Assembly: GCF_026210795.1 (NCBI RefSeq)
Contig: NC_089429.1
Location: 3,658,001-3,722,000 of the forward strand
DNA from: Rhizophagus irregularis
Lineage: Eukaryota; Glomeromycota; Glomeromycetes; Glomerales; Glomeraceae
Length of the DNA: 64,000 nucleotides
Direction of reading: 5' to 3'
Each line of letters opens with the position of its first letter. The first letter of the stretch is position 1. Under the pieces are notes generated by a model. That model ran no database searches and was not told the origin of the DNA. It saw only the letters and a list, made by a program, of their open reading frames with translations. Below are positions 3,948 to 30,100 of the stretch, piece by piece. The position numbers and the translations under genes are program-made.

Positions 3948-5261
3948 TAGTGCTCTGAAAAAAATCCGATCTGATCTGGATCCGCAGATTTGATCTGAGT
4001 CAGATCTGGTTCGGTTTTCAAAATTCTGATCTGATCAATTTTAGATCAGATCAGATCATAACACAAGAAAATCTGATCTGATCTGAACAGATTCAGATCA
4101 GATTTTTTTTAAATAAAAAAAAAATTTTTTTTTTAAAAAACTTTTCCTGGATAAACGGACGAAGCCGGACGACCAAGATTTAAAAGAACGAACTAGGTAA
4201 GTTCATTTTTTTTTTGTTTTTTTTACTTGAGGGAACGTAATTAACGATTCCCTTCTTTTTTAGTAGGAAGCCTGGACAAACGAAGCCTAACGACACGACC
4301 AGGATTTAAAAAAAATGAATGAACTATGGTAAGTTCGTTCCTTTTTTTTATTTTTATTTTTTTATTTTTTATTTAAGGAAACGTAATTAACGTTCCCTTT
4401 CTTTTTTTAGGAAATCTGGACGTGAAACAAAGAAATGACCAGGATTTAAGAGAATGAACTATGGTAAGTTCATTTCTTTTATTTTATTTTATTTTTTTTA
4501 CTTAAGGAAACGTAATTAACGTTCCCTTTCTTTTTTTTTAGGAAACCTGGACATGAGACGAAGGAACGACCAGGATTTAAGAGAACGAACTATGGTAAGT
4601 TCGTTTCTTTTATTTTATTTTATTTTTTTTTACTTAAGGGAACGTAATTAACGTTTCCTTTCTTTTTTTTTAGGAAACCTGAACGTGAGACGAAGGAACA
4701 ACCAGGATTTAAGAGAATGAACTATGGTAAGTTCGTTTCTTTTATTTTATTTTATTTTTTTACTTAAGGGAACGTAATTAACGTTCCCTTTCTTTTTTTA
4801 GGAAACCTGGACGTGAGACAAAGCTGAACGACCAGGATTTAAAAAAAGAACAAACTATGGTAAGTTCGTTTCTTTTTTTATTTTTTTTATTTTTACTTAA
4901 GGGAACGTACTAATTAATGTTTCCTTTCTTTTTTTTAGAAAACCTGGACATGAGACGAAGCTAAACGACCAGGATTCAAAAAAAAAAATGAACTATGATA
5001 AGTTCGTTTCTTTTTTTTGTTTTTTTTCTTATTTTTACTTAAGGAACGTAATTAACGTTCCCTTCCTTTTTTTAGGATAAAACCAGATCCAAACCAGATT
5101 CAGATCAGATTCAAATCAGATTCAAATAGATCTAAACCAGATTCGGATCAAATTGAACCAGATCTGATCAGATTCGAATCAGATCAGATCTATTAAAATA
5201 AAAATCAGATCAGATCAGATTTAAGCTGAATCCAGTCTGAACAGATCTGTTATGAGCACTA
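3948..5261 (+). mobile_element. 1.3-kb non-autonomous hAT-type element carrying an exon/intron-like array
   Basis: The ends are TAGTGCTC (3948-3955) and GAGCACTA (5254-5261), a perfect 8-bp inverted repeat matching the hAT TA-N-N-G end rule. Identical 8-bp target duplications CTTCTCTG lie at 3940-3947 and 5262-5269. About 150 bp inside each end consists of degenerate GATCTGATC and CAGATCAGATT repeats, like the subterminal motifs that hAT transposases bind. The centre (about 4140-5085) is a seven-unit tandem array described separately. There is no transposase, so the element needs a source elsewhere. A relative in opposite orientation lies at 28272-29722. Confidence 0.88.
4140..5085 (+). repeat. 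Exon/intron-like tandem array, family A (7 units of about 132 bp)
   Basis: Each unit reads TTTTTTTTAG, then an exon-like part of about 53 nt from GAAACCTGG to GAACTATG, then donor GTAAGTTCG, then a T-rich stretch, 'acttaag', and an AACGT/ACGTT hairpin before the next U-tract and AG. Donors occur near 4197, 4329, 4465, 4594, 4727, 4860 and 4999, the last changed to GATAAG. In the common form the exon is 53 nt, so the frame would shift at each junction, and one of its three frames holds TGA. A conserved protein repeat is therefore unlikely. Whether the units are spliced cannot be seen here. Confidence 0.7.
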
Positions 5262-5329
5262 CTTCTCTGTCCATACTAGAGTCACCATTACCGGCACGTG
5301 GTCTGAACGTTTCACCAATCCCATTATGG

Positions 5330-7010
5330 ATAGTCCTTATAACGTCGTCTACAACTTACAATAAAAAGATAAAATAAAAAAAAATTAATTTAATAAAAAA
5401 AAGTTTCAAAGAGAAACTTCAAAACTTACCTGAGAAGCCGACCTAAAACTCGAAGATGATTCCTACAAAATAGACAAAAGAACTAGAAATGGTTAGTTTT
5501 TTCAAAACAAAACAGAAAAAATTTAAAGAAAAAAGTTTTGAAAGTAAACTAAACTTTCGAAACTTACTAATCATATCGTCTAAGATCTAGAAGCTCAATC
5601 TACCGGTACCTGCAAAAAAAAAGAAAAAAAAAATTAATAAATTAAAAAGTTCAAAAGTAAACTTTACTTTCGAAACTTACAAATCCTATCGTCTAAGATC
5701 CGGGAACTCAATCTACCAGTACCTGCAAAAAAAAATCAAAAAAAAATAAATAAATTTTAAAAAAGTTCCAAAGCAAAGATTTGCTTCAAAACTTAACAAT
5801 TCATTCTAAGACGCTAATCTACAGCAAGGTACCGTTCTATAAAAAAGAAACCACCGAAGTCAGCCATTTAACGTCAAAAAATCCAACTGAAGAAGTTCAA
5901 GAAGCCATCATGTAAAGATATTTTTAGTTTATTGGTTTCATCTAATGAGTTAGATATCAAAGAAGGTATCAAAAAATCATATTATTTAATCGAAAAATAA
6001 ACAAACCGATACCTACAAAAAAAATAATATAAAATTTAAAAAAAAATAAATTAGAAAAAAAAAGTTATGTTTTGAATTTCAAATCGAAACTTACCATATA
6101 TTCAAGTTCCAAAGCCGAAAGAATCATACCTACAAAAAAAAACAAGAAAATTAAAAAAAAATAAATTAAAAAAAAATAAATTAAAAAAACATAAGTTTCG
6201 AATCGAAACTTACCAGATTCAAGTCCCAAAGCCGAAGAAACCAGAACTCTACAAAAAAATACGAAAAGAAACGTTAGATTATTTCTTAAATTAAAAATAA
6301 CAAAATCCCAACCCTTTCCCATTACTACCTTAAAGTTCAGTTCCGTATTCAAGCCAGCGTCTTACTAGTAGGAGTTCTACAAAAAAAAAAAAGTTCATTT
6401 CTTTAATTAAAAATAACTGAACAAACCCCCTTCCCCATTTCTCACTATCTTAAAGTCCAGTTTCATCATATTCAAACTAGCGTCCTCCTAGTACGCGTCC
6501 TACAAAAAAAATAAAATAAGAAACGTTAAGTAGTTTCTTTAATTAAAAATAACAAACTTCCCCTTCCCCATTTCTCACTACCTTAAAGTCCAGTTTCGTC
6601 GTATTCAAGCCAGCGTCCTCCTAGTAGAAGTTTTACAAAAAAAAAAAAATAATGAAAAGAAACGTTAATTCTTTTCTTTAATTAAAAATAACAAACCCCC
6701 CCTTTCCCCATTTCTCACCACCTTAAAGTCCAGTTTCGTCATATTCAAGCCGGCGTCCTCCTAGTAGACGTTCTACAAAAAAAAAAATAACGAAAAGAAA
6801 CATTAGTTCATTTCTTTAATTAAAAATAACAAACCCCCTTCCCCATTTCTCACTATCTTAAAGTCCGGTTTTGTCATATTTAAGCTGGCGTTTTCCTAGT
6901 ACGCGTTTTACAAAAAAAATAAAATAAGAAACGTTAAGTAGTTTCTTAAATTAAAAAAAAAAATTAAAAAAAAAATTATGTAAGTTTCGAAACGAAACTT
7001 ACATTACTTT
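5330..7010 (-). repeat. Exon/intron-like tandem array, family B
   Basis: Twelve or more units on the minus strand. The most regular are six copies of about 120-125 bp between 6240 and 6960. Each copy reads TTTTTTTGTAG, then a 51-nt exon-like part (GACGCGTACTAGG to GGACTTTAAG), then GTAGTGAG or GTAAGTTTCG donors, then an intron-like part of about 80 nt with 'aattaaagaaa' and 'aacgtttc'. Units between 5400 and 6240 share the layout but differ in exon sequence. All three frames of the 51-nt part meet stops in at least some copies, so a protein is not supported. Confidence 0.65.
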
Positions 7011-7400
7011 CAAGAAAAAGAGGCGGAAGAAAAGTGTGAGAAAAAAGGTGTGAGAAAAAAGGTGTGAGAAAAAGGGGAGAATGAAAGGGGAAGGGAAGGA
7101 CGATAGAGGAAGAAGTAAAGAAGGAAAAAGGAAGGGAAAGGAAAAAGTTTAAAAAAGATGATCCTTTTTTAAACTTTTGATACACGTAATGTGTGACGAC
7201 GTGATGTGTAATTAGTGCATTATTCGACCAACATCTAATCGTAGATCATGGTCAAATTTTTTAATTTTAAGTACTAGTCGAATATAGGCCGAATTTTACT
7301 AAGGCCGAATATTCCTTTTTCAACTAGTAGTAAGAGAAGGGAAATGTGAGGAAGAGAAAGGGTGGGAAAGAGGAAAATAAAAGGATAAAGAAGAGGAAGT
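7011..7400. other. Purine-rich low-complexity tract
   Basis: On the plus strand it is rich in 'ggtgtgagaaaaa' (repeated three times at 7030-7070), 'aggggaagg' and 'gaagagg' words, and so pyrimidine-rich on the minus strand. It sits at the 5' side of the family B array when that array is read on its minus strand. The apparent 69-residue minus-strand frame is low-complexity (Phe, Leu, Ser, Pro) and is not treated as a gene. Confidence 0.5.
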
Positions 7401-7702
7401 TTCATTTATCATGTTGCTAAGATTATTTCACGTGACATGATAATAAATAGGAGCTGATATCATAAAAATTTATTTTTGAAAACATCATATTTGATAAACT
7501 TAATAAACATTGAATTTTCATTATTAAATGATGCACATCATGATAAAAATCTCATTGGTGATGTTTATTAATATTAAATATTACATATACATTTAAAATA
7601 ATAAAAATTACGATGTAAATGATTTGCAAAAATATACATTTGATGAATATTTTTCCCATGACTTCCTGATGATGTTCATAAACATTTTGAACGATCTTGC
7701 AC

Positions 7703-7879
7703 TATACATGCTGCCCAAATTATTTTGGGATGCCATAATTATAATTTGGGATGCCATAATTCATTCAGTTTATATATAATTTACTATGTAAAGTGCCAAA
7801 ATAATTTGGGATGCCATAATTGAATTTGGGATTTTACTTATAATTACGGCAGTCCAAAATAATTTGGGTGGCATGTATA
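7703..7879. mobile_element. 177-bp MITE with 8-bp target duplication, copy 1
   Basis: The ends TATACATGC and GCATGTATA are inverted repeats, followed inward by 'tgcccaaattattttgg' and its complement. The direct repeats TCTTGCAC lie at 7695-7702 and 7880-7887. A near-identical copy of the same length and orientation lies at 36930-37106. The interior repeats 'atttgggatgccataatt' three times and is non-coding. The 8-bp duplication suggests hAT, although the end sequence is not the usual TA-N-N-G form. Confidence 0.88.
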
Positions 7880-8015
7880 TCTTGCACAGCCTTTCCAGGA
7901 ATAGAAGTTTTGGTGCATTCAGAATGACTTAGTTTAAGATTTTTGGCCTTATGAACAATTCTCAAATCGATTTTTTGGTAACAATCAGACATGAAATTAG
8001 ATAATGTTTCTCCTT
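7880..8015 (-). pseudogene. Exon remnant of an unrecognised gene
   Basis: On the minus strand, after an acceptor-like 'tataag' near 8016, the frame reads ETLSNFMSDCYQKIDLRIVH and then KAKNLKLSHSECTKTSIPGK AVQD. It runs without a stop to the edge of the 177-bp MITE. Past the MITE the frame continues for a few codons (RSK) to the end of the 3355-7673 element. Family not recognised. It is probably part of the same broken gene as the fragments at 3268-3354 and 2705-2990. Confidence 0.45.
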
Positions 8016-8179
8016 ATATACAAGTATTCAATCAAATGTCATTGTTTGTACAAATATTGATAACAATAATGATAAACTTACCAGTGAAGTTTTAGATAAT
8101 CAAAGGTGTTACTGAATACATTATTTATTATTGGTATAGTCATAATCATTGCGTATTCAATCTCGTTGAATTCTTGATA

Positions 8180-9990
8180 TCTGCCTTTTTTGTTTACAAA
8201 TATGAACAGATTTTTTAAAAATTCATTGATTCTAAGTTCTAACAATAAATTTAATAAATTTAACAGTAGATAATCACAATTATAAATTGTAAAAAAAATT
8301 TATAACTTACATGTAGAAATATACTGTGACTATTTGCTATACTATTTGAGAATGATCGCCAGTTCTGATCTTAAATAAATAGTCGCAAACTTCATAATAT
8401 TTGTACCTATCGTATATCTGAGAATGGTCAAAATAGATATAAATAAATAATGAAGTAACATGTATGTATACGCAGAAGACAATAATCTCTTCGACAGTAT
8501 CAATAACATTTGTTATCTCTCTTTCAAAAACGTTCAGCTCCATATTAATAATTCCATAGACCTTCCTTTTAATATCTGTCTATTCCTGCTCAAATTATGT
8601 ATACATTCCATCTTCAAACTCTGAAGACAAATTGATAATTGATGAAAGCCCTAATTTGTATTTACTATGTTAGAATTTTTTATATTAATAACCTATTTCA
8701 GAAAAGTAAAAGAATATACTGAATAACACTTTTCATAAATTGCATTCATTCTTTCTTCTCTTTTTTTGAAGCTAATTTTATTAATTTAGCGGTCTTAATG
8801 TTAACAATATCAATGATTAGACAACCATCTCTTAATTTCTATTCAGATTCTTTATTTTGGTTTAAATAATCATTGAATAAAACCATTTTTATATCATCAA
8901 AGAATCTGTCATCATTTTCATCCAATTTATGCTTTTCATCAGTTTTACTATCTGAGCGAATAGTGGTAGAGTATTATGTAATTTACCTTCAGTGCAGGTG
9001 GCTTCAATAGGTAGGTCTTGTAATTTGTCTTCGATTTTACACTGTTTTGTAACTACATCATTATTCTTAAGTAATGTAGATCATTTGTAATAAATCGCAA
9101 ATAACAGTTATAGCTGAAAAATACACATTTATACCTTTTCACAATTCAAACCTTTTTTTGAAGAAGTTTTGGCGTTAATAATATTGTCTATATTCCTGAT
9201 TGGAAAAACTCCTTTAGATAGAGTTTCTTCAGCTGGTCGTTCATTCTTTGAAATTCACATGTAATGTAGTAAATAAAGATATTTAATAAGCAACTATAGA
9301 AGAATAAGTGTAAAAGTAAGTGGCACAAAAAAGAACATATGTAAATATACCAGTATATTATTAAAAACAAAACCTCCATCAGTTTTCAGTGTACTATCAA
9401 CTTCGTTTAAAGCAGTTTTAATCAACCTCTCAGTACCATGTATTACTGTTCGAGCCGTATTTATCTAATCATATTTAGTTAATACAAGTTTAAATTGGAA
9501 TAGGAACTCAAGAAATGGGAATGTAATAAACCTTATCTAATTGTAGACTCAAATTGATGACAGATGATTCTATATTATTCCAAAACATCTTAATATCAAG
9601 GTATTTTTCATGATGATTCTTATATAGTTGAAGAAGTAATTATAATAATTAGAGCAATAATAAAAAATAAAACAAAAGCTGAAGGTAAGCAATAGACACA
9701 TAATGAAAAATGCAGACTATAAAGTGAATAAAGTGCAGATGTCTACCGTAGTTGTATATATAAGAGAAATTCTGTGATACATAACGAAAATGCAGACCTT
9801 TAAAGAACCAAAGTGCCAATATTTCTTCTAGTCGCATAATCACGTTCAAAACCCTCAGCACAAAAAAATATAACCTTATAATCCTATATCAATTTGTTTA
9901 CAGAAACTTTGACTGCTTCTGAATCTTCTCTCGTTAGTTCTTTAAGATCGCACTTAAGTTTACGAGACTTATTTTGGTATGAAAAAGTAA
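8180..9990 (-). pseudogene. Upstream part of a degenerate multi-exon gene
   Basis: Minus-strand coding-like pieces are separated by intron-like AT-rich stretches and single stops. The pieces are KSRKLKCDLKELTREDSEAV (about 9985), KYLDIKMFWNNIESSVINL (about 9600), ARTVIHGTERLIKTALNEVD (about 9455-9390), RPAEETLSKGVFPIRNIDNI (about 9240-9180), CKIEDKLQDLPIEATCTEG (about 9045-8985), DENDDRFFDDIKMVLFNDYL (about 8950-8880), and a Lys-rich piece ending NAIYEKC (about 8740). Several are followed by GT-type donors. The compositions are those of soluble protein. No catalytic motif is recognised. The order and strand suggest one long gene running toward 1447, but at least one nonsense codon per kilobase is present. 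Confidence 0.4.
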
Positions 9991-10520
9991 AGTCAGATTG
10001 CTGATATCAATATTTATAGAAGCTAAGAAAGGTGTAATTTTCTGGTAGCATTTTACAAAAGTAATAAGTGTATTTTTTTGACATTGATGAAAGAAGTCAT
10101 GTCAGAAATGACTCGTGCTGATTGATTAATATACTAGTTAATCAGTTACACAAGGCACAGTAATCTCCAATACCATCTGCAGTAAATATAACATTTGCAA
10201 CTGGTTTGTAAGGTTTACCAAATCACAACTGATTTATAATGCATAATCATTAAATTTTGTTTAGGTTTGTTAAATTGCAATGCTTGAGATAAGCTTTTTG
10301 GTCATACTATAGTCACGTATTTTTAAACATTTTTTTTCTTATTTTAAGACAAATTTCACCTGATCAATTTAACAGGGCGGACATTTCTATTTTATCACAT
10401 ATTTGCTAATCATTTTGCCGATTATTTGTTAATCATTTATTTAATCTTATCACATGAAAAATACCATTATCAGTTATTTTTTTTACAAAATTTACATAAT
10501 AATGTATGAAAAAATGTATT
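9991..10520. other. AT-rich spacer next to the MULE
   Basis: No open frame, tandem repeat or inverted repeat of note was seen. Confidence 0.4.
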
Positions 10521-10533
10521 TGTAACATCCTGT

Positions 10534-11287
10534 TAGAGGTTGGAACCGATTAACGTTAATCGATTAATTAATCGGTTAAGGCGGTTAATCGGTTAGAAGT
10601 ATCAAAAAATCGGTTAATCGACTAAATTAACCGACTAAATTAACCGATTAATTAACCGATTAATTTAGTCGGTTAAAATACTATGCAGATCATTTTCTCA
10701 AATTAGATGATTTTTTATCCCGAAATTCAGATAAGAAGTTTTTTTAATATACAGTATTGACAAACTTGTCAAAAAAATAAACCCATTTAAACTTTTTATA
10801 AATATATCGATTATAGGCCTATTGAAAATGAATCTCTATCTGGTCATTTATTATATATTTTTTTGTAACATATTTAAATGCTTTTATAAGTATTTATTTT
10901 TATTTAAAGTTATTTATGGCGCAGCTAAATGTCATGTGATATATATTACGCAAAATATTGGCGGAATAAAAATATCAACAACATTCCTAAAAACTTGCAA
11001 TTCAATTCCACTATTATTAATATTGTTAATTTCCCATTTAATTAAACCTTGAATTAAAGTCAGTTCTCATTTCCCATTAAAATTTGATATAACTTTTTGA
11101 AATAATACATGTATATTATTCATATAGGGATGCAAAATTTATATATTAACCGATTAATTAATCGGTTAACCTCATCACAAATTAACCGATTAATTAACCG
11201 ATTAATTAACCGATTATTATTCAGTTATGGTAACTGATTAATCGATTATTAATCGGTTAAGGTTTTTTTGGTCGGTTCCAACCTCTA
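10534..11287. mobile_element. 754-bp hAT-type element inside the MULE left terminal repeat
   Basis: The ends are TAGAGGTTGGAACCGA and its complement TCGGTTCCAACCTCTA. Perfect 8-bp target duplications CATCCTGT lie at 10526-10533 and 11288-11295, and they duplicate part of the MULE terminal repeat. Both subterminal zones are arrays of 'ttaaccgattaa' and 'aatcggttaa' words (10545-10680 and 11140-11270). The centre is AT-rich. A 76-codon open frame at 10822-11052 has no support as a gene. Confidence 0.9.
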
Positions 11288-13769: not shown

Positions 13770-14064
13770 TCCTATAAAAAAAGAAAATTCGGAATCTGTC
13801 CTGAAAAGTATGGAAAATGTCCGGAAAATTTTCGTGCGTCCAGAAAACATTCAGAAACGGTCACGTTTTGGAACACTTTCCGGACGCACAAATTCCAGAC
13901 ATTTTCTTGACACTCCAGAATTTGTCCAGAATTTGTCCAGAATCGAGCGTCCAGAAAATGTTCCAAAACATGACCGTTTCCGAATGTTTTCCGGACGCAC
14001 GGAAAATTTCCGGACATTTTCCATACTTTTCAAGACAAATTCCGAATTTTCTTTTTTTATAGGG
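13770..14064. mobile_element. 295-bp foldback MITE with CCTATAAAAA ends
   Basis: The element is one long imperfect palindrome. It starts CCTATAAAAAAAGAAAATTC and ends with its complement GAATTTTCTTTTTTTATAGG. The arms contain 'gtccggaaaattttc'- and 'ccggacgcac'-type words. The 3-bp direct repeat CTT flanks it (13767-13769 and 14065-14067), allowing one mismatch in the first base of the end. Its end sequence matches the 250-bp element at 59065-59314. The 3-bp duplication suggests a PIF/Harbinger- or CACTA-like mover. It interrupts the transposase pseudogene after its last intron. Because it is palindromic, long open frames appear in several frames here; they are not genes. Confidence 0.82.
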
Positions 14065-14236
14065 CTTATTAAAATCAATGATAGCTGAAGTTGGTGAAGA
14101 AAGAGTTTGTGAACTATGGAAGATTACGGACGTGCGACCTGATAACAAAAAACACATACATTTCGTAATAATAATTGATCCTGTCTCATATCTCTGTTTG
14201 TGTATGTCTAATATATCCCGTGGTATTGTTTGTCGT

Positions 14237-14630
14237 TAAAGCTCTACATGAGCCAGCTTGAGCCGAGCCAAGGGCTAGCTCGGCTTGGCTTAGCTTAGCT
14301 TGTTCCAAAAGTTCACAAGCTGGCTCATTTTCAAAATCATATAAAATTTATTATAACTAAAATTTCAAAACGTGATAACTTCGCCAATATTGCTCCAAAT
14401 TTAATGATTTTACTACCATTAGATTCGTCTCATCAAGAGGAATCGAATGGTAGTAAATTTATTAAATTTGGAGCAATATTGGCGAAGTTATCATGTTTTG
14501 AAACTTTAGTTTTAATTTTTAATAAATAGAGTCAGGGTAACATCAAGCCAAGCTATAACTGCAACTTAGTTTGGCTTGGCTTAGTGCAGCTTAAAAGCTC
14601 ACAAGCTGGCTCAGCTCATGTAGAGCACTA
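14237..14630. mobile_element. 394-bp hAT-type MITE inside the SWIM finger
   Basis: The left end is TAAAGCTCTACATGAGCCAG. The right end, read inward, is TAGTGCTCTACATGAGC, so the ends are inverted repeats with the hAT TA-N-N-G form. Near-identical 8-bp flanks TTTGTCGT (14229-14236) and TTTGTCAT (14631-14638) are the target duplication. The subterminal zones carry 'gagccgagcc', 'ggcttggctta' and 'caagctggctca' words. The centre (about 14340-14510) is a second palindrome with the shared 'attcgtctcat' and 'gaatggtagta' motif. It splits the CxC...CxH motif of the MULE transposase. Confidence 0.88.
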
Positions 14631-15530: not shown

Positions 15531-16060
15531 AATAAATTTATCCATAATGTATACTAAAATTTTAATTATAGCTTAATTTTACTTCACATATTAATTTTTA
15601 TCTAAATTGGAGTATAATTAAGTAACTTTACTAATGAGATTTTGAGATTTAATATAAAATAAGTATTTCATCATATGGGCTGATTTGTCTACTCTGCATT
15701 AAAAAGAGTTATTAATTGATTTTCACAATTTTTATTACTCAAAATTGTTTTATAATACCAAAAAATCATCTGATTGATGATCACTTGACTAAATAATAAG
15801 TTAAACAAAAATTTACATTTGCAAAACTTAAATTATTAAATGTAAAAGAGTTGTGAAAAAACCCATTTCACTAATAAAAAACCTATTTCTCATATATATA
15901 GAATTTTTAACATATATTATTAAAAAGTAAGTATATTTTAATAAAATATAAAGTAAAATAAAAATTTATATAGCCTTAGTAGCTATAAATGTTTATAAAA
16001 GTATAATAAAAATATCATATAAAAGATGGTATCATAATAAATATTTTCAAACAATAAAAA
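15531..16060. other. AT-rich spacer
   Basis: Nothing beyond AT-rich sequence was seen. Confidence 0.4.
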
Positions 16061-18304: not shown

Positions 18305-18307
18305 TAA

Positions 18308-21300
18308 CTAATAAATCATATAAAGATTTATAAGAAATAATAACTAAATAACTAAATTTTCATGATAATAACAAATCATACCTTTAAATTAAAGACTGCA
18401 GCAAGTAGTAACAATACAGAAGAAAAAATCAGTCATCATCCAGAACTTCAAGTACTTCGCCCTGAATTAATTTACATACATATCCATAAGGATCATTATC
18501 TAGATATAATATCATTATGAAAAGCTCTACAATTGTAAAATTAATTAAGTCATAAAATCAAGTTGTTAAAAAACATCAATAATATTTATCAGAATAGATT
18601 ATTCCTATAATTTGTATTTTTTTTCTTTTATCAATATTCCAATTGACTCTTATTAATAATTTGACAATTATATTCTTAAGCATCTTTGGTAATTTTAATT
18701 TGGATTTAGTTAAAATTTTTATATCATATTCATCAGTAAATTTTCTTCTAGCCTCACCGGCTCTAAACTCATTATTGTCTTTATTGTCTACTGATTTTAA
18801 AATTCAGTCACTACAGTGATTAAGTTTTTTTCTATTACTTAATTTTTTTTCAATGTTCTTTTTATTTGATGTGGCTACACTAGTACTTTTTTCTCTTAAA
18901 GAATAATGAAATTTTAAATATTGTAGCTAAGCTAATATGTTGCAATAATAAAAAGTAAAATCATTACTGAACTATTAATATTCTATTAATATCACTAAAA
19001 TCTTGATCTATGATTAGAAATCATATATGACAGTTATACCATGATTTGAGATTTTTCTGTTTTAATAATTATTATAAAATAAAAAAAAAGTTTGACAAAA
19101 TTAATATTACAAATAAATTTCATATTATAAATAATTCATTAAATAGCTTTTATTATTTCATAAATATATGACTAATAAATTTCTTTTTAATTAACATAGT
19201 TATAAACTATATATTCTATATTATCTATATTATTATATATTAAAATTTCAAGTATTATTAATATGTATATTTTTGGGTAATTAATAAAATATAAATTCCA
19301 TTATTTTTGTTCAAGTAATGTATATATATACATATTTTATTTATATATATTTTTTCTTTCTTTTTTTATCAATAGAAATAAATAAATAAATAGTATCAAA
19401 TTTGCCAATAAACTGTCTCAAATAAAATCAGATTATTAAAAAATATCAATAATATTCATCAAAATAAACTATTTTTACAGTTTGTATTTTTTTCTTTTAT
19501 CAATATTCCAATTAATACTTCCCAATTATTTGATGATTATGTTTTTAAACATCTTTAATAATTTTAACTTAAATTCAGTTAAAATTTTTATGTTATATTC
19601 ATCAGTAAATTTACTTTTAATCTCAAATCTAGATGCATTTTTTTATTTTATATAATTTGTTTTCATTTTTCATGCTGTAGGATCTGAATTCAATTGCTTC
19701 ATCTATCATTAGATTTATTGCATTTCTTTTTAATTTAATTTTATAAAAATATTTATTATTATGGATTGTAGTAATATCATTGTTATACTTAAGGGAGTTA
19801 CACATATTACGTAATATTCAGTTTAATATAAACTTACTCCTCCCCTCCTTGTCAGATTTAATAACCAATCAAATTATAATATTTATAAATTATATAATTT
19901 TATTAAATGTAATGTAAGATTTTGATTACCCCATGATCCTACTTACTTATAAGATAGGTCACCCCCAGGCCTAAAGTAAAAATCATATATAAAATTCTTT
20001 GCAGATCCTATTATAAAAGGAAATTTTATGTTATATTGTTATAATTTTTTCCTTTTTAGCTAATTAACCAATAGAATTTAAGAAAAAAGTAAGGTAAAAA
20101 CTATTAGTAAAGGGCCAATTTTTTACAGTGACCTTTATTATAAATAAGCGGAGTCCTGTTACCCTCCCTCCTTTAATAATTACGTAATATGTGTAAGCTT
20201 CCTTATTCTATTTATATTAAACTTTTAGTTTTTTAGATTTTTTAGATATACTTGTGTAATGAGCAATCTCAATTGCATCATCATAAGATTGTTTTAAAAA
20301 ACCTGGTTTTTTGAATAATGATTTATTGATTTCTTTATTTTCAAATTGTGAATTGATCTATAAATTGTTATAATATATTCTTAATAATTATTATAAAATA
20401 AAAAAAAGTTTGACAAGATTAATATATTACAAATAAATTTCATATTATTAATAATTTATTGAATAGCTTTTATTATTTTATGAATACATGACTAATATGA
20501 CTAATAAATTTTCTTTTTAATTAACATAGTTGTGAACTATAAAATTTTGAATATATATTTTGTATTATTTATATTATTATAGATTAAAATTTCAAGTGTT
20601 ATTAATATATATATTTTTGAATAATTAATAAAGTATGAATTCCATTATTTCTATCCAAGTAGTATATATATATATACATATTTTATTTATATATATAATT
20701 TCTTTTTTTTTTATCATTAAAAATAAATAAAAAAATAAATAGCATCAAATTTGACAATAAACTGTTTTAAATAAAATCAGGTTGTTAAAGAATATTAATA
20801 ATATTCACAAAATAAATTATTTTTACAGTTTGTATTTTTTTTCTTTTATCAATATTCCAATTAATTCTTTCCAATTATTTGATAATTATGTTCTTAAACA
20901 TTTTTAGTAATTCAGTTAAAATTTTTATGTCATATTCATCAGTAAATTTACTTTTAATTTCAGATTTAGATGCATTTTTTATTTCATACAATTTGTCATC
21001 ATTTTCCATATTATAGAATGCTGTAGAATCTGAATTCAATTGCTTCATTTATCATTGGATTTATTGCATTTTTTTTTTAATTTAATTTCATAAAAATATT
21101 TATTATTATAAATTGTAGTAACGTCATTATTATACTTATTCTATTTATATTAAACTTTTAGTTTTTTAGATTTTTTTAGGTGTATTTGTACAATAAGCAA
21201 TTGCATTATTATAAAATCATTTTTAAAAAACTTGCCTCTTTAAATAATAATTTATTGATTTTTTTATTTTGAACAGCTTTTATTATTTCATGAATATATA

Positions 21301-22170
21301 ACTAATAAATCATATAAAGATTTATAAAAAATAATAACTTACAATTTGTCTTTATTTTCCATGTAGAATGCTATAAAATCTGAATTTAATTGCTGTATTT
21401 ATCATTGGATTTGTTGCATTTTTTTTTAATTTAATTTTATAAAAATATTAATTATTTAGATTGTAATAATGTCATTATTATGCTTATTCTATTTATATTA
21501 AACTTTTAGTTTTTTAAATATTTTAGATGTATTTATACAATGACCAATTTCAATTGTATTATCATAAAATCATTTTAAAAAACTTGTCTCTTTGAATAAT
21601 GATTTATTGATTTCTTTATTTTGAACAGCTTTCATTATTTCACAAATATATGACTAATAATAAATTATATAAAGATTTATAAGAAATAATAACTTACAAT
21701 TTATTTTTATTTTTCATGTAAAATGCTGTAGAATTTGAATTCAATTGTTACATCTATTATTGGATTTATTGCATTTTTTTTAATTTAATTCCATAAAAAT
21801 ATTTATTATTATGAATTGTAGTAATGTTATTATTTGTGCTTATTCTATTTATATTACTTATGCAATGAGCAATCTCAAATGCATTATTATAAAATCATTT
21901 TAAAAAACTTATTTTTTTAAATAATAATTTATTGATTTCTTTATTTTAAATAGCTTTCATTATTTTATAAATATATCATTAATAAATCATATAAAGATTT
22001 ATAAGAAATAATAATTTACAATTTGTCTTTATTTTCATATAAAATGCTAGAATTTGAATCCAATTGTCGCAGTCATCATTGGATTTGTTGCATTTTTTTT
22101 AATTTAATTCTATAAAAATATTTATTATTATAGATTGTAGTAATATTATTGTTTATTCTATTTATATATT
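18308..22170 (-). repeat. Degenerate gene-fragment repeat family, partly tandem (unit about 345 bp)
   Basis: From about 21148 to 22165 three head-to-tail units of about 345 bp share 'cttattctatttatatta', 'cttttagttttttagat', 'cattttaaaaaacttg', 'gatttattgatttcttt', 'tgactaataaat' and 'tttaattctataaaaatatt'. Earlier copies lie at 18.3-19.8 and 20.2-21.1 kb, and others at 30.2 and 32.0-32.35 kb. On the minus strand two once-coding pieces recur: FTDEYDIKILT with MLKNIIVKLL and INWNIDKRKKIQ, and FKEAGFLKRSHGDAIEIT. Every copy is stopped or frameshifted. The parent gene is not recognised. Confidence 0.55.
19793..20202. mobile_element. 410-bp MITE, inverted relative of the 18128 element
   Basis: The left end GGGAGTTACACATATTACGT and right end ACGTAATATGTGTAAGCTTCC are inverted repeats. 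The flanks are TAA (19790-19792) and TTA (20203-20205). The block 'ataaccaatcaaattataat' near 19860 is the complement of sequence in the 177-bp copy. The extra length lies in the middle and is non-coding. Confidence 0.7.
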
Positions 22171-22790
22171 TTTTTTTTAATTTTTAGTTTATTAATTATA
22201 ATACTTGGAATTATACAATATAAGTAAATTACATTACAAAATATACAGTAAATAGGTTAACTACTCCTGCAGTACAATGAGAATACATTAATAAACCTGG
22301 TGCAAATGCACCTATGAATTAAAAGAAAAAAGATGCAGGAAAAATAGAAACAAAAAAAAAAGTCCCACATACAAAAAAGAAAATAAAAAACAAATATGTA
22401 AAAATAAGGAAATAGTCAGTAATGAAGCCACCCTACTACCATTGGTAAATTTTTTAGGATAAAAATCTGCAAAGATCTCTGGCCTAAATTTCTGCACAGA
22501 TCTGCTACCCTATCAACACATGTCAGAGAAAATTTTTTAATAAAATCTATACAGATCTGCAAATGTTAAAAAATCTGCACAGAATTTTAAAAATAAATCT
22601 TCAGAATTTTTCAAAACAACTCAAATTCAGTTATCTGCTATTGAATGTTAACTAGTATCAATTTATTTAATTTATTTAATAAAAGTATTACAAATTATAT
22701 GTACAAATTAATTAAACTACACTAATTATTCTATACTACAAATTTATACGTTGTTAATAGTTTGGACATTGTTCCAGTTAGTTCGATTCT
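22171..22790. other. AT-rich spacer
   Basis: No gene supported. A 61-codon minus-strand frame at 22312-22497 is partly low-complexity (Phe, Leu) and unsupported. A run of 'aaaatctgcacagatct' words lies at 22460-22600. Confidence 0.4.
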
Positions 22791-25640
22791 AACAAATAAT
22801 GGAGACCTACAAATGAAAAAAAAATTTCAAAGCAAGCAGCTTCAAAATATATAATCCAGCAGTCCAGAATCTAAACGCAAAAGAAACGATTATTAGTATA
22901 ACGATCATTAAAAAAAAAATATATAATCCAGCAGTCCAGAATCTAAACGTAAAAGAAACGATTATTAATATAACGATCATTAAAAAATAGAACTTTAAAG
23001 TATTTACCTTTGAAGTTTTTAAATACTTTAAAGTTCTTCATAATGGAAAACTGTAACCTAAAATAAAGAAAAAAATGAACATTAGTATAATATTCATTAA
23101 AGAAAGTAAAACAAAAAAAGAACTTCAAAGTGTTTACTTTCGAAGTTTTTTACTATTACAGTTTACCATCCTAAGGATTTTCAGCAAAATGTGAATCTAG
23201 AATCTAAAATAAAAGAAGAATGAACATTAGTTCACATTCGCTAAATAAAATTAATAAAAAAAATTTTATTCGAAGAAATACCTTCGAATTCTAAACATTT
23301 TGTTGAACAAAAAAAAATAAAAATATAATTTTAAAGATATTTACCTTAAAAATCCCTCCTTCTATTTCTTACATTCTAAGTCTGGTTCATTTAAAGAAGC
23401 TTGACAACCTATAAAATGAATAAAGAACATTAAAAATGTTCTTTTATAAGAAAAAAAAATTATAAAGTTTCACAATGAGACGTTGTGAAATTTACTTTTA
23501 TCCGTTTTAGGAATCTTTGAAGTACTGAAACTACAAAAAAAATAAAAATAAAAATAAAATGTTAGTTACATTTCATTTAAATAAAAACAGAAAAAAACAG
23601 AATTTTAAAGTTTACCTTCGAAATTCTGTTCAGAAGGAGTTTGGAGTGCTGTATTCTTATAAAGAAATAAAAATGAAATATTAGTCAACGTTTCGTTTAA
23701 ATAAAAAATAAGAAAAAATAAAAGAATTTTGAAATTTACCTTCAAAATTCTATTTAGAAAGTATTTATGAACTCGTTCATAGACATACAAAAAGAAGAGA
23801 AGCGAAACATTAGTAAACATTTCATTTTCATAAAAAAAGCAAAAAAAAAATTTTAAAAATTACTTCGAAATTTTGTTCAGAAATCTCAGAACCTAAAAGA
23901 AAAATAAAAAACAACCGGTTAGTAAAAATAAATTATAAATGAAAAACAAAACTGAAAAAAATACACTCACCCAAAGTCTTAGAGACTGAAATCTAAAGAA
24001 AAACACAAAAAGATAATGCAAATTCACCTATTTGGAGATTAACCAAAACTTAAAAGATGAAAAAAAAAACAAAGATTTCAAAACGAAAAACAAAAAAGAA
24101 AAAAACCTAATGGTAAATTTACTTATAGTCTTGGGGAATTACTGAAACTTAAAGAAGAAAGAAAGAAAAAGTTAGTAAAAAGAAATTTGAAACAAAAAAA
24201 ACAAAAACAAAAGAATAAATGCAAACTCATCTGAAGTCTTGAAATCTTTACGTCTTATAACCTAAAAAAAAAATAAAAAACATTAGTATGATTAACATTT
24301 TGTTAAATAAAATCAATAAAAAAATGATACATTTCGAAGTCTTACAAAGTTCAAACTTATTTTTTGGCTTCCTTTACCTAAAAAAAGAAGACGAAACATT
24401 AGTTAATGTTCGTTAAAAAAAAATTATTTTTTTTTAAAAAGTTTATTTACCTTTAACAGAAGTCCAGAACTTTCTTTCAGCTTCCTCTACCTAAAAAAAA
24501 GAAGTACGAATATTAGTGAACATTCGTTTAAATGAAAAAAAAATAAAAATTCGAAGATTTTACCTTCAAAATTCTGTTTTAAAGGCAAAAATCTACAAAA
24601 AATAAAACTGAAATATTAGCTAATGTTTCGTTTAAATAAAATAAAAAAAAGAATAGAATTTTGAAGTATTACCTTCAAAATTCTGTCTGGAAGCCAAAAA
24701 CCTAAAAAAAATAAAAGAATGTTAGAAACTTTCTTTTATAAAAATAAAAAAAAACATAAGTTTCGTGATGAAAGTTCATCATAAAACTTACCATATTGAA
24801 GTTTTGGACCTTAGAGTACTAGAACCTATAAAATAAAAATAAAAAAAATGTTAGAAACGTTCTTAATAAAATAAAAAAAAATTTAAAGTTTCACAACAAA
24901 ATGTTACAAAACTTACCCTTTACTTATTTTAGGAATCTTTAGAGTACTGAAACCTACAAAAAAAAAGAAACCTAAAACACTTATTAGTAATGTTTCATTT
25001 AAATAAAAAAAATCAGAATTTCAAAGTTTACCTTCGAAATTATATCCAGGAGTGTCTGGAATGCTGTATTTTACAAAATACAAAAAAAGAAACGTTAGAA
25101 AATATTTTGTTAAATAAAATTATTAAAAATTTTTTTTTTTGAAGGTTTTACCTTTGATATAGAAGTCCAGAATTCGTTTTTAGCTTCCTTTACCTAAAAA
25201 AAAATATGAATATTAGTTAACGTTCATCAATAATTTAATTAAAAAAAATTCGAAGGTTTACCTTTGAAATGATTGCAAAAAACAAACAAAATAAATAAAT
25301 GAAAACATTAGTAAATATTTCATTAAATAAAACAAAAAAAAAATAAACGAAAAATTATTAGTATTTTGAAGATAAATACCTTCGAAATCCTGTTTTAGAA
25401 GCGATCGGAAAGCCATAGAAACCTATAAATTAAAAAAACTAAAACATTAGCCAACGTTTTGTTTAGAAAACAAAAAAACTTGAATTTTAAAGTTTACCTT
25501 GAAATTCCACGCAGAAATCAACAGAAACTATAGACCTACAAAATAATGAAAACGAAATGTTAGTTAACGTTTTATTTAATAAAAATAAAAAAAATAAAAT
25601 TTTGAAGGGTTTACCTTTGAATTCCAGTATCTGTTAATAA
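22791..25640 (-). repeat. Exon/intron-like tandem array, family C (about 2.8 kb)
   Basis: On the minus strand some 25 units follow one another. Each has a U-tract ending in AG (TTTTTTGTAG or TTTTTTTAG), an exon-like part of about 35-50 nt that often ends GAATTTCGAAG or TTTCAAAG, a donor GTAAACTTT or GTAAATA, and an intron-like part of about 60-80 nt with an AACGTTAGT...TAACGTTT core. The intron start can pair with the exon end, for example GAATTTC with GAAATTC across the donor. A 72-bp segment is duplicated at 22848-22990. The exon-like parts differ in sequence and length from unit to unit. No frame stays open across them. Confidence 0.65.
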
Positions 25641-26610
25641 TAATGTTTAACAACAACATAAAATAAATTCATTCAGTGTTGTCATGGGACAATGTTTGGG
25701 ATATGTTACACAAAAAAGAAATGATAACCCCTTGAAATTTTTCTATAATAACCTTGTTCAATACTTAGCAAAAATGTTTAGCATCCAATTATGCATAAAT
25801 ATATATAATTTTTGTAATTACAGAAGAGTACAGACAGAATGTGAACATGTTCAGAACAACCAAAAAAAGCTGCAGACATCAAAAATATACAACACTGAAT
25901 TCACTGATAAATAGTATACCTAATTTAAGGTGGCCTATTCTTCATTCTACCAGTATGATGAACACCAAGTATCATAACCATTAATTCAAATAATACAAAC
26001 TCAAGTCTATCGTTCAAGATGCTGTTGGTGATGTATCATGGTATATGCATTCCTTATGTTTAGATTTCTGTTAAAGTATTATATTTAATGTACACTAGTG
26101 TTCACCTGTTGTCTACGACAACAGTTAATATGTAATTCCGGCCAGAATTAAAAGATCTGCAAAGAATTTCCTTTTTTGGAAATTTGAGCAACACAATTTT
26201 TTAATTTCTCTGAAAAGTAACAGAAGACAAAATTTCCTTTTTTGGAAATTTGCGTAACCGACAATTTCCTTTTATGGAATCCGGTGTAACCCAAAGTTTC
26301 AGTTTTTTGCCAGAAATAAAATTTCCTTTTTTGGACTTGTGTAACATTGGCGACGAATAGGAGTAGGGTTACACAATTCAAATGACTTATTTATATGGTT
26401 AATCTAAACATAACGCCCACGTGATTGCAGTGTTTTTAAATATATAGATGTTTGATGATTATAGAACAATATTGGATTCTTCTTTCATTGATTCTAATAC
26501 TGTTGCTTCTAATATGATGAATCGACTCAATCATTTTCCAATAATAAGCAATTCTCCAATTTTATTATTTAATAGTTTTGTGTAAAAAACTTATGAGATA
26601 CAGCAAAGGT
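25641..26610. other. Spacer between two parts of the family C array
   Basis: No gene supported. Near 26160-26345 the words 'atttccttttttgga' and 'aaatttg' recur four times, giving an unsupported 77-codon minus-strand frame. A 76-codon plus-strand frame at 25684-25914 has ordinary composition but no recognisable feature. Confidence 0.4.
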
Positions 26611-27010
26611 CAGGTACTATTGGTGTTTGACTACAAAAAAAATAAAAAATGAATGTTAATGAAACGTTCGTTAAAATAAAAAAATTTCATTTTGAAAGTT
26701 ATTACCTTTGAAATATTTGAAATAAGACAGTATCTAAAAAATAAAAGAATAACAAATGTTAAAACATTTATTAAAAGAAAGTAAAAAAAAAGAACTTTGA
26801 AGTATTACATTTGAAGTTCTTTCAAATGGGAGCCTGTGACTTAAAAAATAGGAGAAATGAACAATAGTGAAGTATTCGTTAAAAGAAGAAACTTAATTTC
26901 GAGGTATTACCTTTGAAGTTCTTTTAAATAGGAATCCAGAACTCCAAGGGAGCTGTCCTTTAAAATAAACAGAAGTAAAGAATGTTAGTAAACGTTCTTA
27001 ATGTTAGTTA
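26611..27010 (-). repeat. Exon/intron-like array, continuation of family C
   Basis: Four further minus-strand units have donors such as AAAGGTAATAAC near 26708 and AAAGGTAATACC near 26910, U-tract acceptors, and the 'acgaacgttt' and 'taacatt' cores. They match the units at 22.8-25.6 kb, so the 1-kb spacer between may be an insertion into one array. Confidence 0.5.
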
Positions 27011-27610
27011 ATATTTTTCACACGAATCTTGCCATTTTTGCCCATAAGACTTCATAAGACTTTGAAAGTCAAAAAAAACTTTTTTTAACAAAAATCCTAA
27101 GAAAATTCAAAGTTAGGTGAATTTACTAATTTTATTCGTCGACTTCGAAGCTTGAAAAAAATAGTAATCTTTGAGTATTTTTTTAAAAAAAAACTGTGAT
27201 AGAAATAATTGTCTTTAAAAAGTGTTATAAATTATTTCTTTAAAGTCTTGTAAAAAATTGTTTCTTTAAAAAAGTTTAAATTTGGTTAAAATTAATTAAC
27301 TCGAGTCAATGCAAAGTTTATCAAATAAAAAAAGAAAAATGTGAAGATCTCCAAATATTTTTGTGCGAAGTGTTTTAAAAATATGTGATTTTGGAGATTA
27401 TCACAGATTTGTTTATAAAATATCTTTGAAAAAAATAAAAAGATGAATTCTGCAGTATTGCGCAGATTTTTACTAAAAATTGCAGATTATTGCAATTCTA
27501 CATCCTAAAAAGTTTACTGATGACAATTACACTTCTAAAACTAAGATTATCTAACCATTCTTTTGAATTTATATTATGATACTCCTAGTTTTCTAAACAT
27601 TAACCTTATT
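27011..27610. other. AT-rich spacer
   Basis: Nothing supported beyond a few 'ttctttaaaaa' repeats. Confidence 0.35.
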
Positions 27611-27611
27611 T

Positions 27612-30100
27612 TTGCTAATATAATAAGCTGTCAATACCGTCTAAGGCCTTATCTATGTTCTTGATTTCCTTAGTCACTTTTTGCTTCTTACTCAACTGAG
27701 TGTTAGTATTAATTGTTCGATTCTTGAAGTTGCCTTTTTGATTCATCTTCTGAGGGCATCTACTTCTTTGTTTCAAGTTAGAGGTAAAGTACTTCATCTA
27801 ATCAGTAAATTCGTTCAAACTAAATGGCTTACCAATGATCTTTTTCAAATCAGCCCATGATTCGTAGTAAGTTATTAATTTACAGATACCCTGATCTTGA
27901 ATTAATTAAAATGCTTTACACCTAAAGGTATAACAATAGAATGAGCAGAATTATCCAGATATAAAGTAGCTGTAATTACTGAAGCAAGAACTCCTTTAAA
28001 CATAGCCTGAAATCATTCTCATTTTTTTCTTTGTTTGAGATAATCTCTTAATTAATTTGAATTTAATTGATACTGTAATAGTAACGTATTTAAAACTTGC
28101 TTTTATTTACCTTTGGGCGTAAAAAAAGTGGTTTTTGCTGAGAGGATACTAATTGGTTCCTTTTGTTGTACTGTAGCTTTTGATTGGTGTTTAGATGTTT
28201 TAAGCACTTTTAAAATTTCTATATCCATCAGTTAATTTTCTAAAGATTTGAATATGTCTGGCATTTGTTGTTAGTGCTCCTAACAGATCAGTTCAGACTG
28301 GATTCAGCTTAAATCTAATCTGATCTGATTTTTATTTTAATAGATCTGATCTGATCCGAATCTGATCAGATCTGGTTCAATTTGATCTGAATCTGGTTTG
28401 GATCCATTTGAATCTGATTTGAATCTGATCTGAATCTAGTTTGGATCTGGTCCTTGTCCTAAAAAAAGGAAGGAAACGTTAATTACGTTCCTCAAGTAAA
28501 AAGAAAAAAAAACAAAAAAAAGAAACGAACTTACCATAGTTCGTTCTTTTTTTTGAATCCTAGTCGTTCAGCTTCATCTCACGTCCAGGTTTCCTAAAAA
28601 AAAAAAGAAAGGGAACGTTAATTACGTTCCCTTAAGTAAAAATAAAAAAATAAAAAAAAGAAACGAACTTACTATAGTTCGTTCTTTTTTTTAAATCCTG
28701 GTCGTTCAGCTTCGTCTCATGTCCAGATTTCCTAAAAAAAAGAAAGGGAACGTTAATTAGTATGTTCCCCTTAAGTAAAAATAAAAAAAAATAAAAAAAA
28801 AAATGAACTTACCATAGTTCGTTCTTTTTTTTGAATTTTGGTCGTTCAGCTTCGTCTTACGTTCAGGTTTCCTAAAAAAAAGAAAGAGAACATTAATTAG
28901 TACGTTCCCTTAAGTAAAAATAAAAAAAAATAAAAAAAAGAAACGAACTTACCATAGTTCGTTCTTTTTTTTAAATCCTGGTTGTTTAGCTTCGCCTCAC
29001 GTTCAGGTTTCCTAAAAAAAAGAAAGGGAATGTTAATTACATTCCCTTAAGTAAAAATAAAAAAAAAAACAAAAAAAGAAATGAACTTACCATAGTTCGT
29101 TTTTTTTTTTAAATCCTGGTCATTCAGCTTCATCTCACATCCAGGTTTCCTAAAAAAAAAGAAAGGAAATGTTAATTACGTTCCCTTAAGTAAAAAAAAT
29201 AAAATAAAATAAAAGAAATGAACTTACCATAGTTCGTTCTCTTAAATCCTGGTTGTTCCTTTGTCTCACGTTCAGGTTTCCTAAAAAAAAAAGAAAGGGA
29301 ACGTTAATTACATTCCCTTAAGTAAAAAAAATAAAATAAAATAAAAGAAATGAACTTACCATAGTTTGTTCTTTTTTTTAAATCCTGGTCGTGTCGTTAG
29401 GTTTCGTTCATCTAGGCTTTCTACTAAAAAAGAAGGGAACTGTTAATTATGTTCTCTCAAGAAAAAAACAAAAAAAAAAAATGAACTTACCTAGTTTGTT
29501 CTTTTAAATCTTGGTCGTCTAGCTTCGTCTGTTCGTCCAGAAAAAGTTTTTTAAAAAAAAATTTTTTTTTTTTATTTAAAAAAAAATTTGATCCAAATCT
29601 GTTCAGATCAGATCAGATTTTCTTGTGTTATGATCTGATCTGATCTACAGATTAAAATTTTGAAAACCGAACCAGATCTGACTCAGATCAACAGATCAGA
29701 TCAGATTTTTTTTGGGGTACTATTTATTGTAGTAACGTCATCTGTTGTTTCATGAACTCTTTGCAAACACTTTCCATTCCTTTAATTACACTAACTTAAA
29801 TAAAGTCAAAAGACTTGTAAAAAAGAAAGAGTAAGTGATATAAAGACTGTAAGTCACCGATACTAAAAGTTGCAAGAGCCTCATGATATTTCATAAGTAA
29901 TTTCATATACAGTTCTTCATCTTCAGTAAGTTTTTCAACGGTTTGAAAAATATTTTCATTTGTTAAACTGAAAGAAAAATATTTCTTAGAATATGGCTAA
30001 CCGATTCAAAGTAGAAAGTTCTGTCCACAGCTGTATCAAAGTCATTACCCTCAAAAAGGGTTTTAGAAATGTTTTAATTCGATAAAGAAGCCATAGTTTC
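27612..30100 (-). pseudogene. Unrecognised minus-strand gene, broken by a hAT-type insertion
   Basis: The minus-strand reading starts near 30095 (TMASLSN) and has pieces GNDFDTAVDRTFYFESVSHI, then TVEKLTEDEELYMKLLMKYH, IGDLQSLYHLLFLFYKSFDF and KGMESVCKEFMKQQMTLLQ. It then meets the element at 28272-29722. Beyond the element the frame resumes with QMPDIFKSLEN, KTSKHQSKATVQQKEPISIL, VLASVITATLYLDNSAHSIV, ESWADLKKIIGKPFSLNEFT and a basic C-terminus (RSRCPQKMNQKGNFKNRT) ending at 27615. There are several stops and frameshifts. The protein would be mostly helical with a Lys/Arg-rich tail. I do not recognise it. Matching of the two sides across the target site supports a single interrupted gene. 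Confidence 0.5.
28272..29722 (-). mobile_element. 1.45-kb non-autonomous hAT-type element carrying array family A/D
   Basis: The left end is TAGTGCTC (28272-28279) and the right end is GGGTACTA. Target duplications are TTTGTTGT (28264-28271) and TTTATTGT (29723-29730), 7 of 8 matching. The subterminal zones are GATCTGATC-type repeats as in the element at 3948-5261, which it resembles throughout in inverse orientation. The central array (28450-29545) has eight minus-strand units whose donors read on the plus strand as 'aacttaccatagttcg' near 28530, 28667, 28805, 28948, 29085, 29222, 29356 and 29489. There is no transposase. It sits inside the minus-strand pseudogene at 27612-30100. Confidence 0.87.

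Follow-up and report, generated by a model that had tools for sequence, protein, structure and literature searches.

Tandem arrays of intron-like units are carried by several families of terminal inverted repeat transposons in Rhizophagus irregularis

In the fungus Rhizophagus irregularis, tandem arrays of short intron-like units are cargo of dispersed transposons. The arrays come from a 64-kb stretch of the genome (RefSeq assembly GCF_026210795.1, contig NC_089429.1, positions 3,658,001 to 3,722,000 of the forward strand), here called the window, and from searches of 146.7 Mb of genome sequence in 32 contigs. Four blocks of the window, called A1, A2, B, and C, repeat one unit: a T-rich YAG, a short exon, a GTAAG or GTAAA donor, a T-rich stretch, and a CTAAC-like word about 25 nt before the next YAG. 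Arrays that were read to their ends lie in terminal inverted repeat (TIR) transposons, specifically, hAT elements (A1 and A2), CACTA/Plavaka-like elements, elements with a TA target (C), and an element that we call transposon B. The carrier families number at least three, and probably four; we leave the count at that because the B TIR has ATCAGGAA in common with the TA-target TIR, and the two may be related. Where inverted repeats and target duplications are resolved, they bound the whole element of 1.3–5 kb, and the ends of the intron units are without them. Judged from their sequence features, the arrays are probably non-autonomous TIR-transposon cargo that forms a non-coding RNA polymerase II (Pol II) unit, is spliced many times, and might also benefit the element by its load of introns.

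A sequence-only reading of the window had proposed five blocks with a single layout. For A1, A2, B, and C, this proposal is borne out both by direct reading, in which the blocks were read by eye and then cut at T-rich YAG sites, and by a parser that works from three signals (donor word, branch-like word, T-rich YAG), prefers GTAAGT- and CTAAY-like words, and ignores base pairing. The fifth block, D, is weak: the parser gives no chain of at least three units there, and no transposon ends were found. Block C, taken by the earlier reading as one block, is an array in two pieces (22791–25650 and 26640–27010) with other DNA between them. In the window, the parser returns eight chains of at least two units, holding 33 units, the longest having 8; five chains have at least three units: two in C and one each in A1, A2, and B. 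In 28 array loci (L002 was left out), it returns 45 chains of at least two units with 154 units, the longest having 14. Reversed sequence yields zero chains for the window and zero for the 28 loci, and 29 kb around the host CCT chaperonin genes also yields zero.

Unit sizes were taken from 30 sources, 25 of which have chains of at least two units, with identical introns counted once and with L003, L004, L007, and L008 excluded for overlap with L017 or the window. Exons have a median length of 38 nt (5–95% range 26–64, n = 131) and introns of 81 nt (67–110, n = 183), roughly the 40–55 and 60–90 nt estimated from the window at first sight. The branch A lies a median of 25 nt (20–32) from the 3' splice site. 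Given that the parser prefers such words, the donor is GTAAGT in 100 of 183 array introns versus 1 of 10 host introns, and the branch word is CTAAY (CTAAC or CTAAT) in 130 of 183 versus 0 of 10; the ten host introns were hand-picked from 17 gaps between chaperonin exon matches. The order and spacing of the splice signals are kept across families with unlike exons, which upholds the earlier claim that the layout recurs without overall exon identity.

The composition of the units shows further features. G+C content is 0.40 in array exons versus 0.22 in array introns. The CpG observed/expected ratio is 2.19 in the introns versus 1.11 in the exons; should CpG be methylated in the Rhizophagus genome, so high an intron value would be unexpected for transposon DNA. 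The word TGGAC is overrepresented in the microexons of several families (15 of 76 non-redundant exons versus 2.1 expected from base shuffles) and may act as a splicing enhancer or be left over from a shared origin.

By sequence, most array introns have strong donor and branch signals, each in or at a predicted local hairpin. The AACGTT-type hairpin named in the sequence-only reading is real. It is the second of two, here HP2, and has the branch word at its center (GAAACGTTnACTAACGTTTC). A hairpin that the earlier reading had not named, HP1, sits at the donor. HP1 takes two forms: the donor can lie in the loop, as in A (GAACGAACTATG/GTAAGTTCGTTC) and C (TTTCGAAG/GTAAACTTCGAAA), or it can open the stem (GTAAGTTTCGCAAC..GTTGCGAAACTT).

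Compensatory change supports HP1. From 80 candidates, 18 without the anchor were dropped, and 31 cases were left after removal of near-duplicates. In these non-redundant cases, placed by a sequence-only anchor, the most variable pair (pair 11) is paired in 23 of 24 instances, where shuffles average 10.7 and reach 18 at most; A-U, U-A, and C-G are all common at this pair. An unfitted alignment of 24 of the 31 cases shows pairing in 92.6% of cells. In the same alignment, 27 cells are altered on both sides as compared with 13.0 ± 2.6 in shuffles, and pairing falls to 25–53% once the partner is slid by 1–3 columns. Seven cases were left out of the alignment, six without the terminal ACTT and one with ACTT and poor pairing. 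Because the choice of the 24 favors clean hairpins, the 31-case test is the fairer one. Mismatches in stems, scored in 106 of 159 HP1 and 104 of 133 HP2 sequences, show a moderate bias in HP1, with 79 G-U versus 48 A-C.

HP2 was examined by swapping arms among 123 non-redundant units. Own arms score 1729 versus 1388 ± 33 with swapped 3' arms, a value that 0 of 300 swaps reach, and own arms lie above the mean of the swaps in 93 of the 123 units. The fold z score of the array introns is −2.2 on average; the ten host chaperonin introns range from −0.7 to 1.1.

The carriers were identified from their ends. A1 has the 8-bp target duplication and short TIR that mark hAT elements, and A2 has them with one mismatch. 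Relatives of array A elsewhere give 170 matches, several per array, among the best 40 of 133 candidates. The earlier reading had recognized hAT carriage for block A only. This assignment stands, and other TIR carriers are added here for B, C, and the Plavaka-like locus L018. The ends of transposon B were set by comparison with two copies, L052 and L053; among the best 40 of 131 candidates for the 5' region, 4 further matches are 94–96% alike and 35 are 74–88% alike, most of them covering part of the query.

The Plavaka-like family gives the fullest view of an array carrier. L018 is a 4681-bp element with ends CACAGGTCGAA..TTCGACCTGTG. Its type has the CACTA/Plavaka hallmarks of a TIR starting with CAC and a 3-bp target duplication; the duplications are AGT, TAC, AAC, and ATA in the four copies for which both ends were available. 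The L018 upstream region has 40 full matches including itself, the others at 86–97%, among the best 40 of 197 candidates. Genome-wide, there are 71 left ends of this type (at most 1 mismatch) and 81 right ends (at most 2 mismatches). L018 is inserted in a transposase-like gene, and the exact empty site occurs in L056, identical over 57 bases. L056 itself is an 8791-bp element with L018-type ends, 85–90% alike over ~440 and ~550 bp, and with target duplication TAG. One of its four open reading frames (ORFs) tested matches PF02992 (Transposase_21, tnp2) at E = 1e-6 and 28.5 bits, the cut-off being 28.6, and the parser finds no array chain in this transposase-bearing element.

On contigs 1–6, 18 of 20 L018-type left ends have a partner right end no more than 20 kb away; one right end on contig C3, near no left end, was left out. 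All 14 paired elements of 4.2–7.0 kb have strict array motifs (12 have HP2 and the other two HP1), and both pairs of 8.0–8.3 kb are without an HP2 match. A 13.8-kb pair has four HP2 matches, all from a nested L018. A 15.0-kb pair also has four. In the L051 part of a 15-kb element span, the ORFs longer than 100 aa are two frames over the CT tract only. The short elements thus have motifs, and L056 has a transposase and no chain; in this family, then, the short form has an array where the long copy that was read has a transposase.

Block C lies in an old copy of a third kind of carrier, the L005/L047/L050 type. L047 and L050 have ends CATCAGGAAATTTTTT (the left end of L047 is CATCGGAAAATTTTTT); L005 has the right end and L046 the left end in common with them. 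A TA target duplication is present on both sides in L050 and L047; it was not seen in L046, on the right side of L005, or in window C. Provisionally, we call the block C/L005 type Tc1/mariner-like. The terminal exon of L005-type elements has 40 matches including the query, the others at 87–97%, among the best 40 of 152 candidates. The left end of block C has 2 mismatches to the TIR, which alone is near chance (2 window matches, 0.51 expected); it is backed by its position and by adjoining likeness seen by eye, and the right end was placed by eye. Membership of block C as an old L005-type copy follows from the likeness of its terminal exon together with the diverged ends. In that last exon, L005 (2735–2945) and the window (22660–22830) differ by a compensatory change, one having TTGG-AATCGAA-CCAA and the other TTAG-AATCGAA-CTAA. 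We take the reverse complement of this motif to resemble a tRNA T-arm (GGTTCGATTCC).

A fifth type, L022/L038 (copies L054 and L055), is 97% alike over 3.2 kb and shows no inverted repeat at its break points. In L017 (contig C1, 1446000–1455900), by eye, an array is interrupted by an element with inverted ends (CACCTTGTTATGG..), and arrays in opposite orientation flank it. Given similar nesting in L005 and L047, arrays seem to be frequent insertion sites.

Table 1. Array-related features of the window (positions within the 64-kb stretch)
Feature	Position	Strand	Description
Block D	770..1110	-	About three microexon/intron-like units by eye, weak hairpins
Transposon B	3355..7674	-	Inverted ends (C)ATCATCAGGAAGTCATGGGAAAAAT.., ~33 bp; split by A1
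A1, hAT-like non-autonomous element	3948..5261	+	TIR TAGTGCTC; 8-bp target duplication CTTCTCTG on both sides; sits inside transposon B
Array of A1	4140..5085	+	Donor in hairpin loop (GAACGAACTATG/GTAAGTTCGTTC); branch hairpin GGGAACGTAATTAACGTTCCC
Array of B	5330..7010	-	Donor hairpins GTAAGTTTCG..CGAAACTT and branch hairpins
CT-rich tract	7020..7190	-	After a perfect hairpin, upstream of the B first exon; by eye
Old copy of TA-target TIR transposon (L005/L047/L050 type)	22440..27522	-	Diverged ends CATCAGTAAACTTTTT and AAAAAATTTACCAATG; target duplication not visible
Terminal exon of C	22660..22830	-	AATAAA-like signals; 80–82% over 96–97 bp to terminal exons of L005, L046, L047, and L050
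Array of C	22791..27010	-	Donor hairpin (TTTCGAAGGTAAACTTCGAAA); branch hairpin (CGAAACGTTnACTAAYGTTTCG)
A2, hAT-like element	28272..29722	-	Target duplication TTTGTTGT/TTTATTGT, one mismatch
Array of A2	28450..29545	-	8 introns parsed

The arrays are abundant. A genome scan for units, suggested by the sequence-only reading, succeeds with strict patterns: the HP2 pattern GAAACRTTNRCTAAYRTTTC has 346 matches versus 0 for the reversed pattern, and the HP1 pattern GTAAGTTTCGN{5,22}CGAAACTT has 618 versus 0 for its control. Strands are added in these counts, so palindromic places are counted twice. From the share of strict-pattern units in loci chosen by other means, we arrive at a very rough genome total of 3,000–4,900 units. 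A pattern of GTAAGT and AACGTT at fixed distance proved useless, with 24 matches versus 59 for the reversed control, because the spacing varies.

The order of parts within an element resembles that of a transcription unit. In L018, a palindromic upstream region and a hairpin are followed by a CT tract of ~330 nt, a first exon (..ACAATG/GTAAGT), 14 introns, a last exon, and AATAAA signals. Transposon B has the same hairpin-then-CT-tract layout, with no obvious sequence likeness to L018. Copies were compared in two of four planned pairs, A1 with A2 and L018 with L044; L042 and L043 were dropped because array lengths lay more than 500 nt apart. Between these copies, 2 of 95 donor sites and 2 of 93 branch-word sites have changed, as compared with 82 of 739 exon sites and 54 of 764 in the hairpin arms or regions.

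Our hypothesis is that Pol II would transcribe the array unit, and that the transcript would be spliced many times to give a short non-coding RNA. The array exons are presumably too short for exon definition. The local hairpins may hold each intron's donor and branch site to itself among near-identical neighbors; by keeping the signals local, they would let such neighbors be spliced in order. With less assurance, we suggest that the intron load raises RNA output or chromatin access, or that the transcript mimics a well-spliced host transcript to the silencing machinery. Findings in Cryptococcus bear on these suggestions. There, the number and the position of introns have a cumulative effect on expression (PMC3744415), and RNA interference (RNAi) is recruited by spliceosomes that stall on transposon transcripts (PMC6232588). 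Taken together, the two facts suggest that a transposon rich in strong introns might benefit in both ways.

Several observations weigh against the arrays being multiply spliced cargo. The HP2 arm-swap result is inflated by kinship within families. In fixed register, most HP2 pairs are no better than shuffles and a few outer ones are higher; the HP2 consensus is itself palindromic, which accounts for this, and arms were swapped instead. Outside the branch word, HP2 stems have 39 G-U versus 47 A-C, and so give no sign of selection on the RNA strand; given the G-U excess in HP1, the RNA strand appears favored for HP1 only. The fold z score is below −2 in only 45% of array introns. Minimum-energy folds pair most of the donor in 118 of 183 introns and the branch word in 102 of 183, pairing that could hinder splicing. 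Many B units at 6260–7010 have weak, GTAGTG-like donors, and the parser chains just 3 B units. The rest of the intron also changes slowly between copies (24 of 610 sites), so the donor and branch words are clearly distinct only by comparison with exons and hairpin arms. The acceptor triplet has changed at 9 of 60 sites. We ascribe these acceptor changes to alignment in T-runs, since, if a shift of at most three bases is allowed, 33 of 36 comparisons keep the AG (both pairs counted in both directions, 6 unaligned introns excluded). Searches of exon-exon junctions for spliced copies of family A and of the L018 family gave 0 matches each, a result that is uninformative if nothing retroposes. Finally, the transposase-bearing elements read number one, L056.

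A narrower version of the hypothesis is that the intron train is cargo only to mimic an actively spliced host gene, and so to escape silencing by RNAi or heterochromatin. The non-autonomous form would then swap its transposase for an intron train, gained by, or converged upon in, three to four TIR families. This version strikes us as doubtful, if worth keeping in mind.

The arrays could instead act at the DNA level, as unspliced palindromic minisatellites in transposons that serve as binding sites or as replication or recombination structures, their splice words being relics of an ancient ancestor that had introns. The genome has multiple occurrences of the perfect palindrome GAAACGTTAGCTAACGTTTC, the splice words are often paired in folds, and spliced copies were not found for the two families searched. 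The explanation keeps its weight mainly from the missing G-U bias of HP2 and the high CpG of the introns. Yet donor, branch word, U-tract, AG, and spacing are kept in order across families with unlike exons, the donor and branch words change less than the exons or hairpin arms, HP1 favors G-U, and a CT tract and a poly(A)-like end bracket the L018 array. We judge unspliced minisatellites to be unlikely.

A further alternative is that the arrays are hairpin RNA factories, in which small RNAs, serving as silencing decoys or regulators, are processed from the transcript or from its introns, and splicing is incidental. Dense hairpins with compensatory changes fit this idea, as do the AGO-loaded, 2'-O-methylated small RNAs of R. 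irregularis (PMC8647823). The splice words, however, are kept, and not the stems alone. Moreover, the stems are short (~8–14 bp by eye) and imperfect, and such stems are unlike good Dicer substrates. A small RNA source therefore appears improbable.

The sequence-only reading had raised the possibility of introner-like units. Tandem amplification and an intron-like form are confirmed; the whole transposon demonstrably moves, and no sign was seen of the intron moving by itself. The other two ideas of that reading, splice-factor decoys and a spliced non-coding RNA, may also apply. If these were true introners, mobility would belong to the intron and the arrays would be pile-ups of its copies, some of them beside or in host genes; this would explain why a single intron architecture is estimated to occur thousands of times. 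To look at single units, we took 20 isolated-looking HP2 matches from the first 100 listed of the 346. Four of them (L024, L025, L029, and L041) have no parser chain on their own strand, and same-strand coding-like DNA lies near three others (L034, L036, and L028). Against this, within 900 nt of each of the 20 there are 1–9 further parser units, and for 16 of them the parser gives a chain of at least two on the strand of the match. In L034 (contig C4, 3721400–3723200, minus), a Crinkler N-terminal match (PF20147, E = 1.9e-11) lies upstream of the array units on the same strand, and the array begins ~340 nt past the end of that ORF, not within it. None of the 17 chaperonin gaps has an array-type intron by eye, and the inverted repeats and target duplications belong to the element, not to the unit. 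Introners in the strict sense are very unlikely here.

The Pfam check near arrays that yielded the Crinkler match covered 20 ORFs, namely 19 of 92 ORFs of at least 60 aa and one shorter ORF from L028. It also gave a lysozyme-like ORF downstream of the L036 array on the same strand (PF00959, E = 3.8e-6). Around the HP2 match of L028, an open coding-like stretch (..YGPVDFAIDLLQTAKTVSVTEIWSK) without a Pfam match runs straight into an HP1-type donor, as if an array unit were fused to a host multi-copy gene.

The earlier reading held a protein product to be unlikely, and the coding tests agree. Exon lengths show no bias to multiples of three (28, 47, and 56 exons leave remainders of 0, 1, and 2; n = 131), and in 12 of 14 arrays at least 13 of 200 shuffles reach the observed spliced open run, so coding is unlikely. 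Micro-exon protein genes, like the schistosome micro-exon genes or the aphid bicycle genes and perhaps decayed effectors, are thus extremely improbable: the spliced open runs of L005 and L001 do beat almost all shuffles (1 of 200 and 2 of 200 reach them), but the exons change fastest between copies and, by eye, their lengths do not differ in threes.

Non-autonomous elements with internal tandem repeats, as seen in the arrays, are familiar from the DINE-1/Helentron type, and we know of no ordered splice signals in the repeats of that type. Together with other transposons that have central tandem repeats, DINE-1/Helentrons (PMC4067079) are among the closest known systems. Introners and introner-like elements (PMC9860276, PMC4457414) are, like the arrays, multi-copy short introns with splice signals and signatures of DNA transposons. 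In contrast to the Rhizophagus introns, which form trains in larger non-autonomous transposons, introners insert one at a time and create new introns within protein genes; "Rhizophagus" is not mentioned in the main text of PMC9860276. The Plavaka/CACTA (CMC-EnSpm) elements of Rhizophagus (PMC11075540, PMC8647823) have in common with ours the TIR CAC, the 3-bp duplication, and a tnp2-type transposase in the long partner. The difference is that the short partner described here, the L018 type, carries a tandem array of introns instead of the transposase, and the word "intron" is absent from the main text of both papers. Schistosome micro-exon genes (PMC10526429) likewise have chains of tiny exons, but they encode secreted proteins and have long introns, whereas the Rhizophagus arrays keep no frame. 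The stwintrons and symmetrical introns of Hypoxylaceae (PMC8469720) are also multiplied fungal introns with internal symmetry; they are nested introns in genes, while ours are arrays in transposons.

Other candidate sources were rejected. The SP7 effector genes have repeats at the protein level and a single conserved intron rather than intron arrays (PMC11333574), and the AGL cell-surface genes have one or two introns (PMC8786786). Spliced-leader RNA genes do not fit, as the parsed internal exons follow a T-rich YAG acceptor and an Rfam scan of 79 kb gave 0 matches.

Arrays of this kind are not described in the literature searched, which consisted mainly of open main texts and, within them, best-matching entries, a scope that does not prove absence. 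About two thirds of R. irregularis transposons were unclassified before the curation reported in PMC11075540, and uncharacterized repeats make up 24% of the genome according to PMC8647823. The array-bearing elements may be part of these repeats. If the arrays are spliced, their micro-introns, which are related to one another, number in the thousands, and vary naturally in both hairpins, are ready material for testing the influence of local RNA structure on the use of donors and branch points. If the intron load protects the elements, the arrangement would be the mirror image of the spliceosome-based sensing of transposons reported for Cryptococcus, in which RNAi is recruited by transposon introns on which the spliceosome stalls (PMC6232588).

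The window has some further features near the arrays and beyond them. A tandem repeat of ~80 bp at 193–660 directly adjoins block D, and a 355-bp tandem repeat in 3.5 copies at 20987–22167 adjoins block C. In the host-gene part of the window, positions 37434–37955 hold an ORF (HSKNILVNDGKLLIADFGLSK) that we take to be protein-kinase-like.

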